Shown here piece by piece: positions 2,549 through 5,717 of a DNA stretch of 10,079 nt. The stretch's first letter is position 1; every line of letters starts with the position of its first letter. This DNA is from Acidimicrobiia bacterium (lineage in GTDB: Bacteria > Actinomycetota > Acidimicrobiia > Acidimicrobiales > AC-14), in the NCBI GenBank assembly GCA_019243595.1, contig JAFAUA010000049.1:1-10079 (forward strand), in the 5' to 3' direction. A program made the position numbers and the translations under genes. The notes beneath the pieces were generated by a model that was not told the DNA's origin, made no database searches, and saw only the letters and a program-made list of their open reading frames with translations.

Positions 2549-2983
2549 TTACTCCTTCTCTTCGTGCTCTTCGTGCTCGTGGCGGCTACGACCGCGGCCG
2601 CCCCGCTTGCGGGGGCCCAGCTTGTCGCTGTAGCTGTCCCGGATCCGGAGGGCCTCTTCCCGGTACTTCTTGCGCACGTCGTGCATGTCCTTGCGCATCT
2701 GGCGGCGCAGGTCGTGGACCTCGTGGTGGAAGCGATCCCAGGCGGCCTGGCGGCTCACGCCCACCGAGGCGCCGATCGTCTCCCACGTGGCGCCGTCGCC
2801 GATGGCCTCCTTGACCAGCTGGGCCTCCCACGTGGGCAGCTGGGCGCTCAGCGCCCGGGTGGCGCCGAGGGCTTCGAGGGGATCGCCGTTGCCGGTTGCC
2901 GTCTCCCAGGCCTGCTTGAGCAGCGCAGGGACCTCGCGAGGGCGAGGAGAATCGTCGTGTGCTTCGTTGGTAACTTCATCCAT
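2549..2983 (-). CDS. Small HTH DNA-binding protein with charged C-terminal tail, 144 aa
   Basis: A predicted DNA-binding protein of unknown regulon. A helix-turn-helix of the sigma-region-4-like kind seen in many small actinobacterial proteins lies at residues 66-85 (TWETIGASVGVSRQAAWDRF), preceded by a helical segment with LPTWEAQLVKEAIGDGA. Residues 86-120 form a long, highly charged helix rich in Arg, Lys, Asp and Glu, likely a coiled coil or nucleic-acid contact. The end is a basic stretch (RKRGGRGRSR) followed by the acidic, His-containing tail HEHEEHEEKE. ATG 2983 is chosen because a promoter-like pair places transcription start almost on it. An in-frame ATG at 3007 (8 residues longer) is possible but lies between two operator-like repeats. 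It sits first in the minus-strand cluster, 35 bases before tetR, and is divergent from the sulfite reductase. It could regulate itself, the sulfur genes, or both. Confidence 0.8.
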   Translation of the reverse strand: MDEVTNEAHDDSPRPREVPALLKQAWETATGNGDPLEALGATRALSAQLPTWEAQLVKEAIGDGATWETIGASVGVSRQAAWDRFHHEVHDLRRQMRKDMHDVRKKYREEALRIRDSYSDKLGPRKRGGRGRSRHEHEEHEEKE

Positions 2984-2986
2984 GCC

Positions 2987-3031
2987 GTCAAGGATGCCTT
3001 GACACATCACTTCTGTCAAGCGGAACTTGAC
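2987..3031. promoter_or_regulatory. Two identical-format operator-like inverted repeats, GTCAAG-N5-CTTGAC
   Basis: The palindrome GTCAAG-N5-CTTGAC occurs at 2987-3003 (spacer GATGC) and again at 3015-3031 (spacer CGGAA). The repeats are 28 bp apart, start to start. The second extends to seven-base arms (TGTCAAG/CTTGACA, 3014-3032). Both lie just upstream of the HTH gene start and 230-280 bases upstream of the sulfite reductase. Repeated palindromes of fixed spacing next to a regulator gene are what an autoregulated operator looks like. The adjacent HTH protein is the first candidate to bind them; the TetR protein or an unlinked sulfur regulator are alternatives. Confidence 0.65.
2991..3019 (-). 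promoter_or_regulatory. Candidate promoter of the HTH gene giving a leaderless transcript
   Basis: On the minus strand a perfect -35 hexamer TTGACA (3019-3014) is followed after 17 bases by CATCCT (2996-2991), a weak -10 that keeps the A at position 2 and T at position 6. Transcription would begin about seven bases further, at or next to the ATG at 2983, so the message would have little or no 5' leader. That is common in Actinobacteria and explains the lack of a Shine-Dalgarno. The -35 is part of the second operator-like repeat, and the -10 lies inside the first. A bound protein would therefore occlude both elements. Confidence 0.45.
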
Positions 3032-3071
3032 ACAAGTCGAAGTCCCCAAAACTTGATCAGATTTATCGGGA

Positions 3072-3206
3072 ATGATTGACTGGATGGTCGTGAGGCCCTC
3101 TCTCGCCCTGCGCTGCTCGTGGCTGCGTGAACTCGGCGCGCCATCGATCGCCATGGGCGTGACGCCCCACCTCGCCTTCGACGAGACCTGTCGCCTCCTG
3201 CCGTAA
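3072..3206 (+). CDS. Candidate leader ORF upstream of sulfite reductase, 44 aa with cysteine near its end
   Basis: A short open frame from ATG 3072 to TAA 3204-3206, ending 56 bases before the sulfite reductase start. Cys occurs at residues 15 and 40, and the end reads FDETCRLLP. Shorter versions could start at ATG 3084, ATG 3153 or GTG 3159; the last would be a 15-residue peptide. No convincing Shine-Dalgarno precedes any of these starts, so the leader would have to be leaderless or weakly translated. I do not recognise the peptide itself. Cysteine-containing leader ORFs before sulfur-assimilation operons are established in mycobacteria (there with Cys runs), and small leader peptides with a Cys near the end are annotated in other Actinobacteria. 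The strongest argument here is the RNA pairing described in the next entry. Translation is unproven. Confidence 0.4.
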   Translation: MIDWMVVRPSLALRCSWLRELGAPSIAMGVTPHLAFDETCRLLP

Positions 3207-3263
3207 GCGGACGCCGCGCGCTTCGCCGGCTCCGATTCCGCCCGTGCCCGTGAGGAGGTCGCA
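3189..3263 (+). promoter_or_regulatory. Predicted RNA switch: leader-ORF anti-Shine-Dalgarno pairing with the sulfite reductase RBS
   Basis: CCTCCT at 3194-3199, the codons just after the leader Cys codon TGT (3189-3191), is an exact complement of AGGAGG at 3253-3258, the reductase ribosome-binding site. The helix can add a G:U pair (3193:3259) and, after one mismatch, pair the TGT Cys codon with GCA at 3261-3263, which includes the A of the start codon. The loop between holds a nested GC hairpin at 3208-3234 (CGGA/TCCG and GCCG/CGGC stems). The expected logic is that a ribosome paused at the Cys codon when cysteine is scarce would mask the anti-SD and free the RBS. The pairing is seen directly; the regulation is inferred. 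Confidence 0.5.
3252..3258 (+). promoter_or_regulatory. Strong ribosome-binding site of the sulfite reductase gene
   Basis: GAGGAGG lies four bases before ATG 3263, close to a full match to the 16S rRNA 3' end. It fixes the start of the reductase and is the target of the upstream CCTCCT. Confidence 0.85.
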
Positions 3264-5035
3264 TGCTGATCCGGGAAATTGACCCCGCGCAAAGAGCTGA
3301 CATCGACAAGTTCCGAACGCAGCTCGACCTGTACCTGAACGGTGAGGTCGACGAGGATGCCTTCCGCGTCTTCCGCCTGAACAACGGCATCTACGGCCAG
3401 CGCCAAGGCGGCCATAACCAGATGGTCCGCGTGAAGGTGCCGTACGGCTCGATCCAGCCCGATCAGCTGGACATGCTCGCCCACATCGCCGACACCTACT
3501 CGCGCGGCTGGGGCCACATCACGACGCGACAGAACATCCAGTTCCACTACGTGCAGCTCGAGCAGGTGCCCGACGTGCTCGAGGACCTGGCGTCGGTCGG
3601 CCTGACGACCCGCGAGGCGTGCGGCGACACCGTGCGCAACATCCAGGGCTGCCATCTCGCCGGCGCCTGCCCGTTCGAGGTCCTCGACATCAGCCCGTGG
3701 GCGGAGGCGACGTTCCGCTATCTGCTCCGGTACCCGTACTCGCAGCGCCTCCCGCGCAAGTTCAAGATCAACTTCTCCGGCTGCACCACCGACTGCGGCC
3801 AGGCCATGTTCAACGACGTCGGCATCATCGCCGTCGGCCGGCCCCGGCCGGACGGCACCGTGGAGCCCGGCTTCAAGGTGTTCTTCGCCGGCGGCCTCGG
3901 CGCCAACCCCAAGGCGGCCCAGGCTCTCGAGGAGTTCACGTCTCGCGAGGACCTGATGCCGACGATCGAGGCGGTCCTTCGCACCTTCGACCACTACGGC
4001 AACCGCGACAACAAGCTGCGGGCCCGCATGAAGTGGCTGCTCGACACCATGGGCGTCGACGAGCTGCGTCAGCGCATCCTCAAGGAGCGCAAGTTCCTGC
4101 GGGCGTCGACCACCTGGGCGCACGGGATCCCCGAGTACGTGCAGGAGCACGGCGACGCGCCGGCGGGCGTGTCGACCACGACCGATCCGACGGCGATGGG
4201 TTGGGGCACCAACGTCACGTTCAAGCACCGTGATCCGTACGGCCGCTGGGACGACGCCAACGTCGTGCGCGGCGTCGCCAAGGGCACCGTGTCGGCCTAC
4301 GCCTACGCCCGCCTCGGCGACATCACCAGCGACCAGTTCCGGGCGCTCGCCTCGACCCAGCGAGAGCTGCGTGCCGAGGTGCGAGTCACTAACCGCCAGA
4401 ACGTCGTGTTCCGCGGCCTCACCGAGGAGCAGCTGCCGACGCTCTACGCCCGCCTCAACGCCATCGGCATGGCCGAGCCTGGCGCCGAGCTGGCCCGCGA
4501 CGTCGTGAGCTGCCCGGGTGCCGACACGTGCAACCTGGCGGTCACCCAGTCCCGCGGCCTGGCCTCCGATATCGGCCGGGCGCTGGAAGAGGCCGGGCTC
4601 GCCGACGTCGGCGGTGTGCGCGTGAACATCTCCGGCTGCACGAACTCGTGCGGCCAGCACCACGTCGCCGACATCGGCTTCCTCGGCGTCGAGCGCCGGG
4701 CGCACGGCAAGCCCGCCCCCGGCTACCAGATGCTGCTCGGCGGACGCCTCGGTCAGATGGAGGTGCAGTTCGGCGTCAAGGCGCTGCGCCTGCCGGCCAA
4801 GGCCACCGGCGAAGCGACCGTCCGTGTCGTCAGCCGCTTCGCCAACGAGCGTGAGGCGGGCGAGGAGTTCGGCAACTGGCTCGACCGCGTCGGTGGCGCG
4901 TCGGCGATTGCCGCCGAGCTCAAGGACCTCGACCAGTTCCCCACACCGGAGGAGCGGCCCGACTTCTACGTCGACTTCGACGAGACCGGTCCGTACGTCG
5001 CCGAAGTGGGCGCCGGCGAATGCGCGGGGGCCTGA
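3263..5035 (+). CDS. Ferredoxin-type assimilatory sulfite reductase (nitrite/sulfite reductase family), 590 aa
   Basis: A siroheme and [4Fe-4S] enzyme for six-electron reduction of sulfite to sulfide (or nitrite to ammonia) in the cytosol. The fold is two homologous halves, each with a ferredoxin-like half-domain followed by a siroheme/Fe-S domain. The siroheme-contact motif is TTRQNIQF at 87-94 in half one and NRQNVVF in half two. The cluster ligands are C417-x5-C423 (CPGADTC) and C459-x3-C463 (GCTNSCG). Half one also carries a full quartet, C130-x5-C136 and C174-x3-C178, which is unusual for the family. ATG 3263 has a GAGGAGG ribosome-binding site. Sulfite rather than nitrite is favoured because an APS reductase gene follows four bases after the stop, and both are preceded by a cysteine-type leader. 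No dedicated flavoprotein partner is adjacent, so ferredoxin is the likely donor. The sequence alone cannot exclude nitrite as substrate. Confidence 0.93.
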   Translation: MLIREIDPAQRADIDKFRTQLDLYLNGEVDEDAFRVFRLNNGIYGQRQGGHNQMVRVKVPYGSIQPDQLDMLAHIADTYSRGWGHITTRQNIQFHYVQLEQVPDVLEDLASVGLTTREACGDTVRNIQGCHLAGACPFEVLDISPWAEATFRYLLRYPYSQRLPRKFKINFSGCTTDCGQAMFNDVGIIAVGRPRPDGTVEPGFKVFFAGGLGANPKAAQALEEFTSREDLMPTIEAVLRTFDHYGNRDNKLRARMKWLLDTMGVDELRQRILKERKFLRASTTWAHGIPEYVQEHGDAPAGVSTTTDPTAMGWGTNVTFKHRDPYGRWDDANVVRGVAKGTVSAYAYARLGDITSDQFRALASTQRELRAEVRVTNRQNVVFRGLTEEQLPTLYARLNAIGMAEPGAELARDVVSCPGADTCNLAVTQSRGLASDIGRALEEAGLADVGGVRVNISGCTNSCGQHHVADIGFLGVERRAHGKPAPGYQMLLGGRLGQMEVQFGVKALRLPAKATGEATVRVVSRFANEREAGEEFGNWLDRVGGASAIAAELKDLDQFPTPEERPDFYVDFDETGPYVAEVGAGECAGA

Positions 5036-5039
5036 CGAC

Positions 5040-5717
5040 ATGGCAATGACACTCCCCCGCTCCGAGCTCTCGCCGTCGGAGATGGCGTCGCTCAACGAGC
5101 AGTTCGAGAGCGCGCCGGCCAGCGAGATCATCCGCTGGGCGGTCGACACGTTCCATCCCCACCTGGCGTTGACGGCGTCGATGACCGACGCCGTCCTCAT
5201 CGATCTCGCCGTCACGGTCGAGCCGTCGATCGAGGTCGTCTTCATCGACACCGGCTACCACTTCCCGGAGACGCTCGAGACGGTCGAGACGGTGCGCCGG
5301 AAGTACGGGCTGAACCTCAAGATGATGACGGTGCCGCATCACGCCGAGGAGCTCTGGAAGGTCGATCCCGAGAACTGCTGCTCGGCGATCAAGGTCGGCC
5401 AGCTCGACCGGGCCCTGATGGGCAAGGAGGCGTGGATGAGCGGGCTGCGCCGGGCCGAGTCCCCGACGCGGGCCAACGCCCCGATCCTGTCGCTGGATCT
5501 CCGAGGGCTGGTGAAGATCAATCCCATCGCCATGTGGACCGACCTCGACGTCCAGGGCTACATCAAGGACCACGACGTCCCGGTGAACCCCCTCGTCGAC
5601 CAGGGCTACCCGTCGATCGGCTGCCAGCCTTGCACGCACCCCGTCGAGCCGGGCGCCGACCCCCGCTCAGGCCGCTGGGCGGGCAAGGACAAGACGGAGT
5701 GCGGTCTGCACCTCTAG
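5040..5717 (+). CDS. cysH: Phosphoadenylyl/adenylyl-sulfate reductase, APS-type (CysH), 225 aa
   Basis: Reduces activated sulfate to sulfite with thioredoxin, feeding the adjacent sulfite reductase. It has the PP-loop ATP-pyrophosphatase-like fold, with the nucleotide-binding region near LTASMTDAVLIDLA (44-57) and the family block VVFIDTGYHFPETLET (67-82). Cys113-Cys114 plus C195-x2-C198 form the [4Fe-4S] ligand set that distinguishes APS reductases from most PAPS reductases. The catalytic Cys221 lies in the conserved C-terminal ECGLHL. The length is normal for an assimilatory APS reductase. ATG 5040 is four bases after the upstream stop, so the two genes form one transcription unit; a second ATG at 5046 is a possible start. 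The stop is interlocked with that of the convergent glycosyltransferase gene. No ATP sulfurylase genes are in the window. Confidence 0.95.
   Translation: MAMTLPRSELSPSEMASLNEQFESAPASEIIRWAVDTFHPHLALTASMTDAVLIDLAVTVEPSIEVVFIDTGYHFPETLETVETVRRKYGLNLKMMTVPHHAEELWKVDPENCCSAIKVGQLDRALMGKEAWMSGLRRAESPTRANAPILSLDLRGLVKINPIAMWTDLDVQGYIKDHDVPVNPLVDQGYPSIGCQPCTHPVEPGADPRSGRWAGKDKTECGLHL

Follow-up and report, generated by a model that had tools for sequence, protein, structure and literature searches.

The window, the 10,079-nt stretch of DNA analysed here, is contig C48 of a 3.7-Mb draft genome. In it a short open reading frame precedes the genes for a sulfite/nitrite reductase-like hemoprotein (SIR) and for CysH, with a divergently transcribed gene on its other side (Table 1). 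Between the divergent gene and the leader promoter, at 2981-3045, lie repeated TTGACA/TGTCAAG-like boxes.

Table 1 Features of the leader-SIR-CysH locus, in window coordinates
Feature	Position	Strand	Remarks
Divergent gene upstream of the leader	2552-2983	-	No convincing Pfam match
-35-like TTGATC	3053..3058	+	Within the conserved upstream box CTTGATCrGATTnnTCrGgAAT; aligned relatives
-10-like TTGACT	3076..3081	+	17 nt past the -35-like TTGATC; overlaps the ATG 3072 codon region
Leader ORF	3090..3206	+	Probable leaderless GTG start; 38 codons + TAA; (V/M)RPSLALRCSWLRELGAPSIAMGVTPHLAFDETCRLLP; protein-level selection, 41 loci
Invariant leader-peptide core GAPSIAMGVTPH	3135..3170	+	Alignment of relatives
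TGT cysteine codon, presumed pausing codon	3189..3191	+	Cys34 counted from GTG 3090
CCTCCT, complementary to the SIR Shine-Dalgarno sequence	3194..3199	+	Seen in the window's genus
C-rich spacer, leader stop to Shine-Dalgarno sequence	3207..3252	+	
AGGAGG, SIR Shine-Dalgarno sequence	3253..3258	+	
SIR	3263..5035	+	ATG 3263; scores do not reach the curated cut-offs for single equivalogs
Phosphoadenylyl/adenylyl-sulfate reductase CysH	5040..5717	+	PRK02090, 243 bits, cut-off 154; start inferred

The sequence-only reading had described the short frame as an ORF of 44 codons at 3072-3206, with its stop 56 bases before the SIR ATG. That frame is present in the sequence, but ATG 3072 is probably not where it begins, since the likely -10 element overlaps this codon and the sister locus L003 has an in-frame stop there (ATG GTT GAC TGA). 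Alignment with relatives makes GTG 3090 the likely start of the window's leader, with ATG 3084 as a possible alternative; genome G003 has an ATG at the position matching GTG 3090. Across the relatives, a TANNNT motif is found 6-9 nt upstream of the chosen leader start in 35 of 42 loci, as compared with 1 of 2073 A/GTG codons in downstream coding DNA, a contrast that is overstated because each leader start was picked as the best among several candidates at its locus, with five set by hand, and the background codons were unselected. Despite this inflation, the regular spacing of the motif, which is 7 nt in 27 of the 42 loci, supports leaderless leader mRNAs, and to judge from these alignments that is how they look. 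In the window's genus TTGACT takes the place of TANNNT at -10, and a strict sigma-70 scan of window positions 2950-3330 returned no promoter. A conserved box lies over the -35 position and comes in two forms (at 3050-3075 in the window, and 20-50 nt before the -10 element in other loci): CTTGATCGGATTACTCAGGAAT-like in the window's order and TTCCYGACC-N6-CTGGYATTT-like in other families of the class. The first form may be a regulator's site, since it is also found at SIR genes without a leader.

A leader-peptide family of Acidimicrobiia

The short ORF ahead of SIR is real and is one of an as yet unnamed family of leader peptides in Acidimicrobiia, whose core, GA[PAN]S[IV]xxGxTPHxxxDExC, was found at 41 distinct loci after removal of duplicates, together with one degenerate locus (L010), which was added by hand and stands outside the 41-locus counts. 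In oriented DNA upstream of SIR, the same core occurs in two genomes of the window's genus and in members of other families and orders. Of the 397 genomes sampled from the order, 23 matched a 13-sequence profile (A1) at E <= 0.01; the core is carried only by the 10 with E < 1e-9, and the remaining 13 were treated as noise. In the class sample the same profile matched 33 of 395 genomes at E <= 1e-4, with G000 and G023 common to the order and class samples. These two genomes were again the only matches in a phylum sample of 396 genomes of only partly known class make-up, in which no match fell outside the window's order. With a 25-sequence profile (A2), 10 of 14, 8 of 12 and 7 of 7 genomes matched in three families of the class; a match in G555 (E 4e-6, within a 487-aa frame) has no core and was excluded. 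The distribution is patchy. Most SIR loci examined are without the core, and in the window's own family G000-G003 carry the leader, G004 has a degenerate form and G006-G009 gave no match. At the degenerate locus (L010, G004:C112) the GAPS part of the core is lost and FDETC is kept, with its TGT, and the spacer has a CCTCCT directly before the Shine-Dalgarno sequence.

Among 768 candidates in the protein collection, 112 were homologues; they have no Pfam domains, and those that are named are called 'hypothetical'. NCBIfam and Pfam profiles run on 13 members gave nothing better than E 0.15, Rfam had no match at its gathering thresholds (only IRES_mnt, at 15.2 bits against the 100 required), searches of the PDB (best E 0.55) and of phage records (best E 4) returned no convincing match, and no account of this peptide came up in a literature search that took in Acidimicrobiia leader peptides.

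Averaged over 41 loci and 23 codons, pS comes to 0.551 and pN to 0.261, and pN is the lower of the two in 97.7% of pairs. Eight residues (G, A, S, G, T, P, H and D) are invariant across the 41 loci, and their codons vary synonymously in every case except that of D. The excess of pS over pN and the varied synonymous codons at conserved residues show that the peptide is under selection. The C-terminal part of the leader varies in length and sequence among loci.

SIR lies downstream of the leader in 40 of the 42 loci and is immediately next in 36. At L005, L138 and L141 a TauE/SafE-type gene sits between the two (Pfam was run on L141 only, and the first gene of L138 was judged by its likeness to L005 and L141), and at L077 the intervening gene encodes ATP-sulfurylase. 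The two loci without SIR have other genes of the same theme: at L166 the leader precedes CysH and a siroheme-synthase-type protein, and at L140 (G045:C110) it precedes JAB, ThiS and PALP (cysteine synthase-like) genes, a gene set like that of the mec-cysO-cysM cysteine pathway, which uses protein-bound sulfur. Sulfur or cysteine genes thus follow the leader in all 42 loci, and the supply of sulfide and cysteine is the theme common to the leader-linked operons.

The cysteine codon, Shine-Dalgarno pairing and the spacer

The family has a single conserved cysteine codon, the window's leader having an additional, non-conserved Cys9. The conservation of this codon in relatives had been proposed as a check in the sequence-only reading, and it is borne out: the codon is TGT in 37 of the 37 core loci that have Cys, and also in L010, and TGC never occurs at that position. 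For comparison, TGT makes up 17 of the 355 Cys codons in the downstream SIR genes, and the remaining Cys codons within the leaders comprise 7 TGC and 1 TGT. The four core loci that lack Cys retain the third-base T, with AGT for Ser (L006, L183) and GAT for Asp (L184, L185). The third base is therefore T in 41 of 41 loci, where SIR codon usage predicts 2.2 codons ending in A or T; since the search patterns ignored the codon, this invariance does not arise from the selection of cases. On a SIR tree of 39 tips, the column shows 3 residue changes and 0 third-base changes, as compared with 4-17 third-base changes at the codons for G, A, S, G, T, P and H (two of the tips are short SIR pieces of 91 and 55 residues, and L140 and L166, which have no SIR, and L010 were left out). 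The third base of D15 likewise shows 0 changes on this tree, its codon being GAC in 39 of 39 tips. At the protein level, the column in the 112 collection homologues holds 98 Cys, 11 Ser, 1 Thr and 1 Asn, and one protein ends before it. Cysteine is thus not strictly required, given the Ser or Asp in 4 of the 41 loci and, among 111 collection proteins, the 13 with another residue. From the invariant T we infer that a codon which is rarely used and decoded by wobble is needed in the A site. Separately, codons ending in A or T are scarce in the four codons before the Cys codon (6 of 152 across the 41 loci, about 19 expected).

The elements from which the sequence-only reading had built an attenuator, that is the TGT codon, the CCTCCT at 3194-3199 and the complementary AGGAGG of SIR, are all present in the sequence, and its extended helix, which takes in the Cys codon, also appears in the predicted fold, where the stretch with the Cys codon and CCTCCT lies on AGGAGGTCGCA. 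In partition-function calculations on the window, the Shine-Dalgarno sequence pairs with CCTCCT with a probability of 0.96-0.99, falling to 0.00 when a ribosome is placed on the Cys codon, and the probability that it is unpaired rises from 0.01-0.02 to 0.38-0.63. Pairing alone is unremarkable, as CCTCCT is common enough in the window (10 copies on the two strands against 5.7 expected, with at least as many in 17 of 200 shuffles) and the predicted folds have no more stability than those of shuffled sequence (z +0.73 for 206 nt and -0.36 for 81 nt). The covariation between 3194-3199 and 3253-3258 for which the same reading had called was absent, CCTCCT and AGGAGG being identical in the three members of the genus. 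In the sister L003 the pairing probability is 0.71 with 3 nt of SIR included, 0.05 with 33 nt and 0.00 with 60 nt; in the sister L032 the Shine-Dalgarno sequence prefers another partner, which leaves a probability of 0.00.

The same analysis also covered the 36 loci where SIR is the next gene, that is all but L005, L077, L138, L140, L141 and L166; for L001 and L032 it used an ATG two codons before the GTG, with the genus members recalculated from GTG. Across these loci, accessibility of the Shine-Dalgarno sequence does not differ from that of shuffles (0.25 versus 0.27, p 0.35), the gain with a ribosome at the Cys codon is likewise no different (0.057 versus 0.019 in shuffles, p 0.19), and five-base anti-Shine-Dalgarno stretches, present in 14 of the 36 loci where 16.4 would be expected, are not above chance. 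A conserved sequestration of the Shine-Dalgarno sequence is therefore not supported, the partition functions, computed both for free RNA and with a ribosome footprint, showing no significant difference from shuffles. The proposal that ribosome occupancy of the Cys codon decides whether the ribosome-binding site opens accordingly stands as a prediction for the window, but not as a general mechanism, with the sisters not robust and the 36 loci unenriched. The built-in anti-Shine-Dalgarno stretch would at most be a local variant of the output.

An intrinsic terminator was rejected as the output, since none was found in window positions 2950-3330 and a T-rich run is present in only 3 of the 36 loci. 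The spacer after the leader stop is rich in C and poor in G, with 52% C and 26% G in the 36 loci, as compared with 31% and 29% before 111 SIR genes without a leader (p 6e-14), a control that consists of DNA upstream of SIR and often includes promoter DNA. Together with the presence of Rho in the genome, the C-rich spacer makes Rho-dependent attenuation a live option, and in most relatives it points to Rho-dependent termination rather than to Shine-Dalgarno pairing; protection from Rho by a stalled ribosome would require the right geometry.

A putative ribosomal sensor of cysteine and its alternatives

A conserved leader with a rare codon that never varies suggests that the ribosome, in reading it, senses the supply of cysteine and switches the genes that make cysteine. 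On balance we favour the reading in which the leader ahead of SIR-CysH senses cysteine by ribosome pausing and carries a conserved nascent chain, and cysteine sensing as such is likely on the comparative evidence. In outline, the leader peptide would be the first cistron of the SIR-CysH mRNA, which would begin at the start codon. With its exit tunnel occupied by the conserved chain, the ribosome would pause at the wobble-decoded UGU codon, the usual form of an invariant NNU codon at a fixed distance past the core. Scarce Cys-tRNA would lengthen the pause and thereby raise expression of the downstream genes, through unmasking of the Shine-Dalgarno sequence, through Rho, or both; in the window, the pause would release the SIR Shine-Dalgarno sequence from CCTCCT. 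We advance more tentatively, as a possibility, that the family represents a new class of ribosomal sensor, in which the chain GAPSIxMGRTPHExxDEx primes the ribosome and a single wobble-decoded NNU codon, normally UGU-Cys, gauges cysteine. Under this bolder proposal, decoding at the sensor codon, beyond the amino acid itself, would be the conserved function, because the Ser and Asp lineages have kept the U.

Several other readings have to be weighed against ribosome pausing at the cysteine codon, and the probabilities assigned to them overlap with that of the favoured reading, since two of them are special forms of it. One is an arrest peptide in the sense of TnaC, in which the core would bind a small sulfur metabolite or the tunnel, charging of Cys-tRNA would not be the signal, and access of Rho to the C-rich spacer would be the output. 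It draws on that spacer and on a core that is better conserved than the cysteine (8 invariant residues, against Cys in 37 of 41 loci), on the persistence of the NNU codon when the residue changes, and on the near-constant place of the Cys column, which in 32 of 41 loci falls on codon 24 or 25 (31-34 in the other 9, and 34 in the window). The prevalence of Cys at that column, in 98 of 111 collection proteins as well as in those 37 loci, nevertheless fits a cysteine signal better, and we consider the arrest peptide somewhat unlikely. The other special form is translational attenuation in the window's genus, where a ribosome on the Cys codon would open the SIR Shine-Dalgarno sequence held by CCTCCT. 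The near-complete pairing predicted for the window and its loss with a ribosome in place speak for it, as does the same logic reported for mycobacteria (cited in PMC13236596), but with no covariation, the two sisters not robust and no enrichment over the 36 loci it appears unlikely.

Two further readings were also weighed. The invariant T could belong to a hairpin of the leader RNA, GAC-N7-GUC, whose three pairs are all possible in 32 of 41 loci and with which the invariant GAC codon of D15 and the scarcity of A/T endings just before TGT would agree. The pairs are broken in the other 9 loci, though, where the T is invariant too, and Rfam gave no match; as a conserved element the hairpin was rejected on account of those broken pairs, and we regard this account of the T as very unlikely. 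Least probable of all is a microprotein acting in trans, for instance on SIR. The strong conservation of its residues would suit such a role, but a third base that is invariant across Cys, Ser and Asp codons is unexpected for a protein function, the C-terminus is variable in length and sequence, and the leader is the putative first cistron also at cysteine operons that have no SIR.

Should ribosome pausing at the cysteine codon hold, the range of cysteine-responsive leader peptides, so far mycobacteria and a few other Actinobacteria, would come to include a largely uncultured class. Their design there would differ, a conserved peptide with a single invariant, rare codon replacing the cysteine run. 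The 3 residue changes against 0 third-base changes lead to a prediction, namely that changing TGT to TGC, with the peptide left the same, should weaken regulation. The core also offers a handle at the protein level for finding sulfur operons, as well as small ORFs that are annotated 'hypothetical' or missed.

Relation to known leader peptides

Mycobacterial poly-cysteine leaderless sORFs ahead of cysA2 and other cys operons were reportedly described by Canestrari et al. in 2020. The Acidimicrobiia leader resembles these in being a short, putatively leaderless ORF that would be first in the mRNA, with a Cys codon near its end and sulfur or cysteine genes behind it; it differs in its single Cys codon, its conserved core and its invariant UGU. 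Leaders with cysteine runs had been predicted in mycobacteria, P. acnes and B. longum in 2005, with Rho suggested as a possibility for the mycobacterial ones in section 6 of that paper (Seliverstov et al., PMC1262725); they were seen in mycobacteria by ribosome profiling in 2015 (Shell et al., PMC4633059) and are cited as translational attenuators (PMC13236596). As far as these accounts go, the two kinds also share the lack of an intrinsic terminator. We do not file the present leader with the mycobacterial poly-Cys leaders, as it is without their defining cysteine run, even though on present evidence it would work alike. The suggestion of the sequence-only reading that it might be a separate version of the mycobacterial logic is upheld by a different peptide with one conserved Cys codon. 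The leader's link to sulfur assimilation and cysteine synthesis is supported as well.

A second point of comparison is TnaC, a leader of 24 residues. In E. coli it exemplifies how a conserved chain can turn the ribosome into a sensor (PMC8429421). The likeness lies in a short leader with a conserved chain, in the place of the sensor codon (24 or 25 in most loci) and in a possible Rho-type output. In contrast to TnaC, the genes here are biosynthetic rather than catabolic, the presumed pause is at a sense codon and not at a stop, and a ligand is hypothetical; a relation in sequence is not claimed. The trpL, leuL and metL attenuator leaders of Streptomyces are similar in being leaderless and in having the relevant codon ahead of amino-acid genes, but several of them end in terminator hairpins and none of the eight listed in the source is cysteine-dependent (PMC8079986). 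A single relevant codon is found among the leaders described there as well, as in TrpL2 (PMC8079986).
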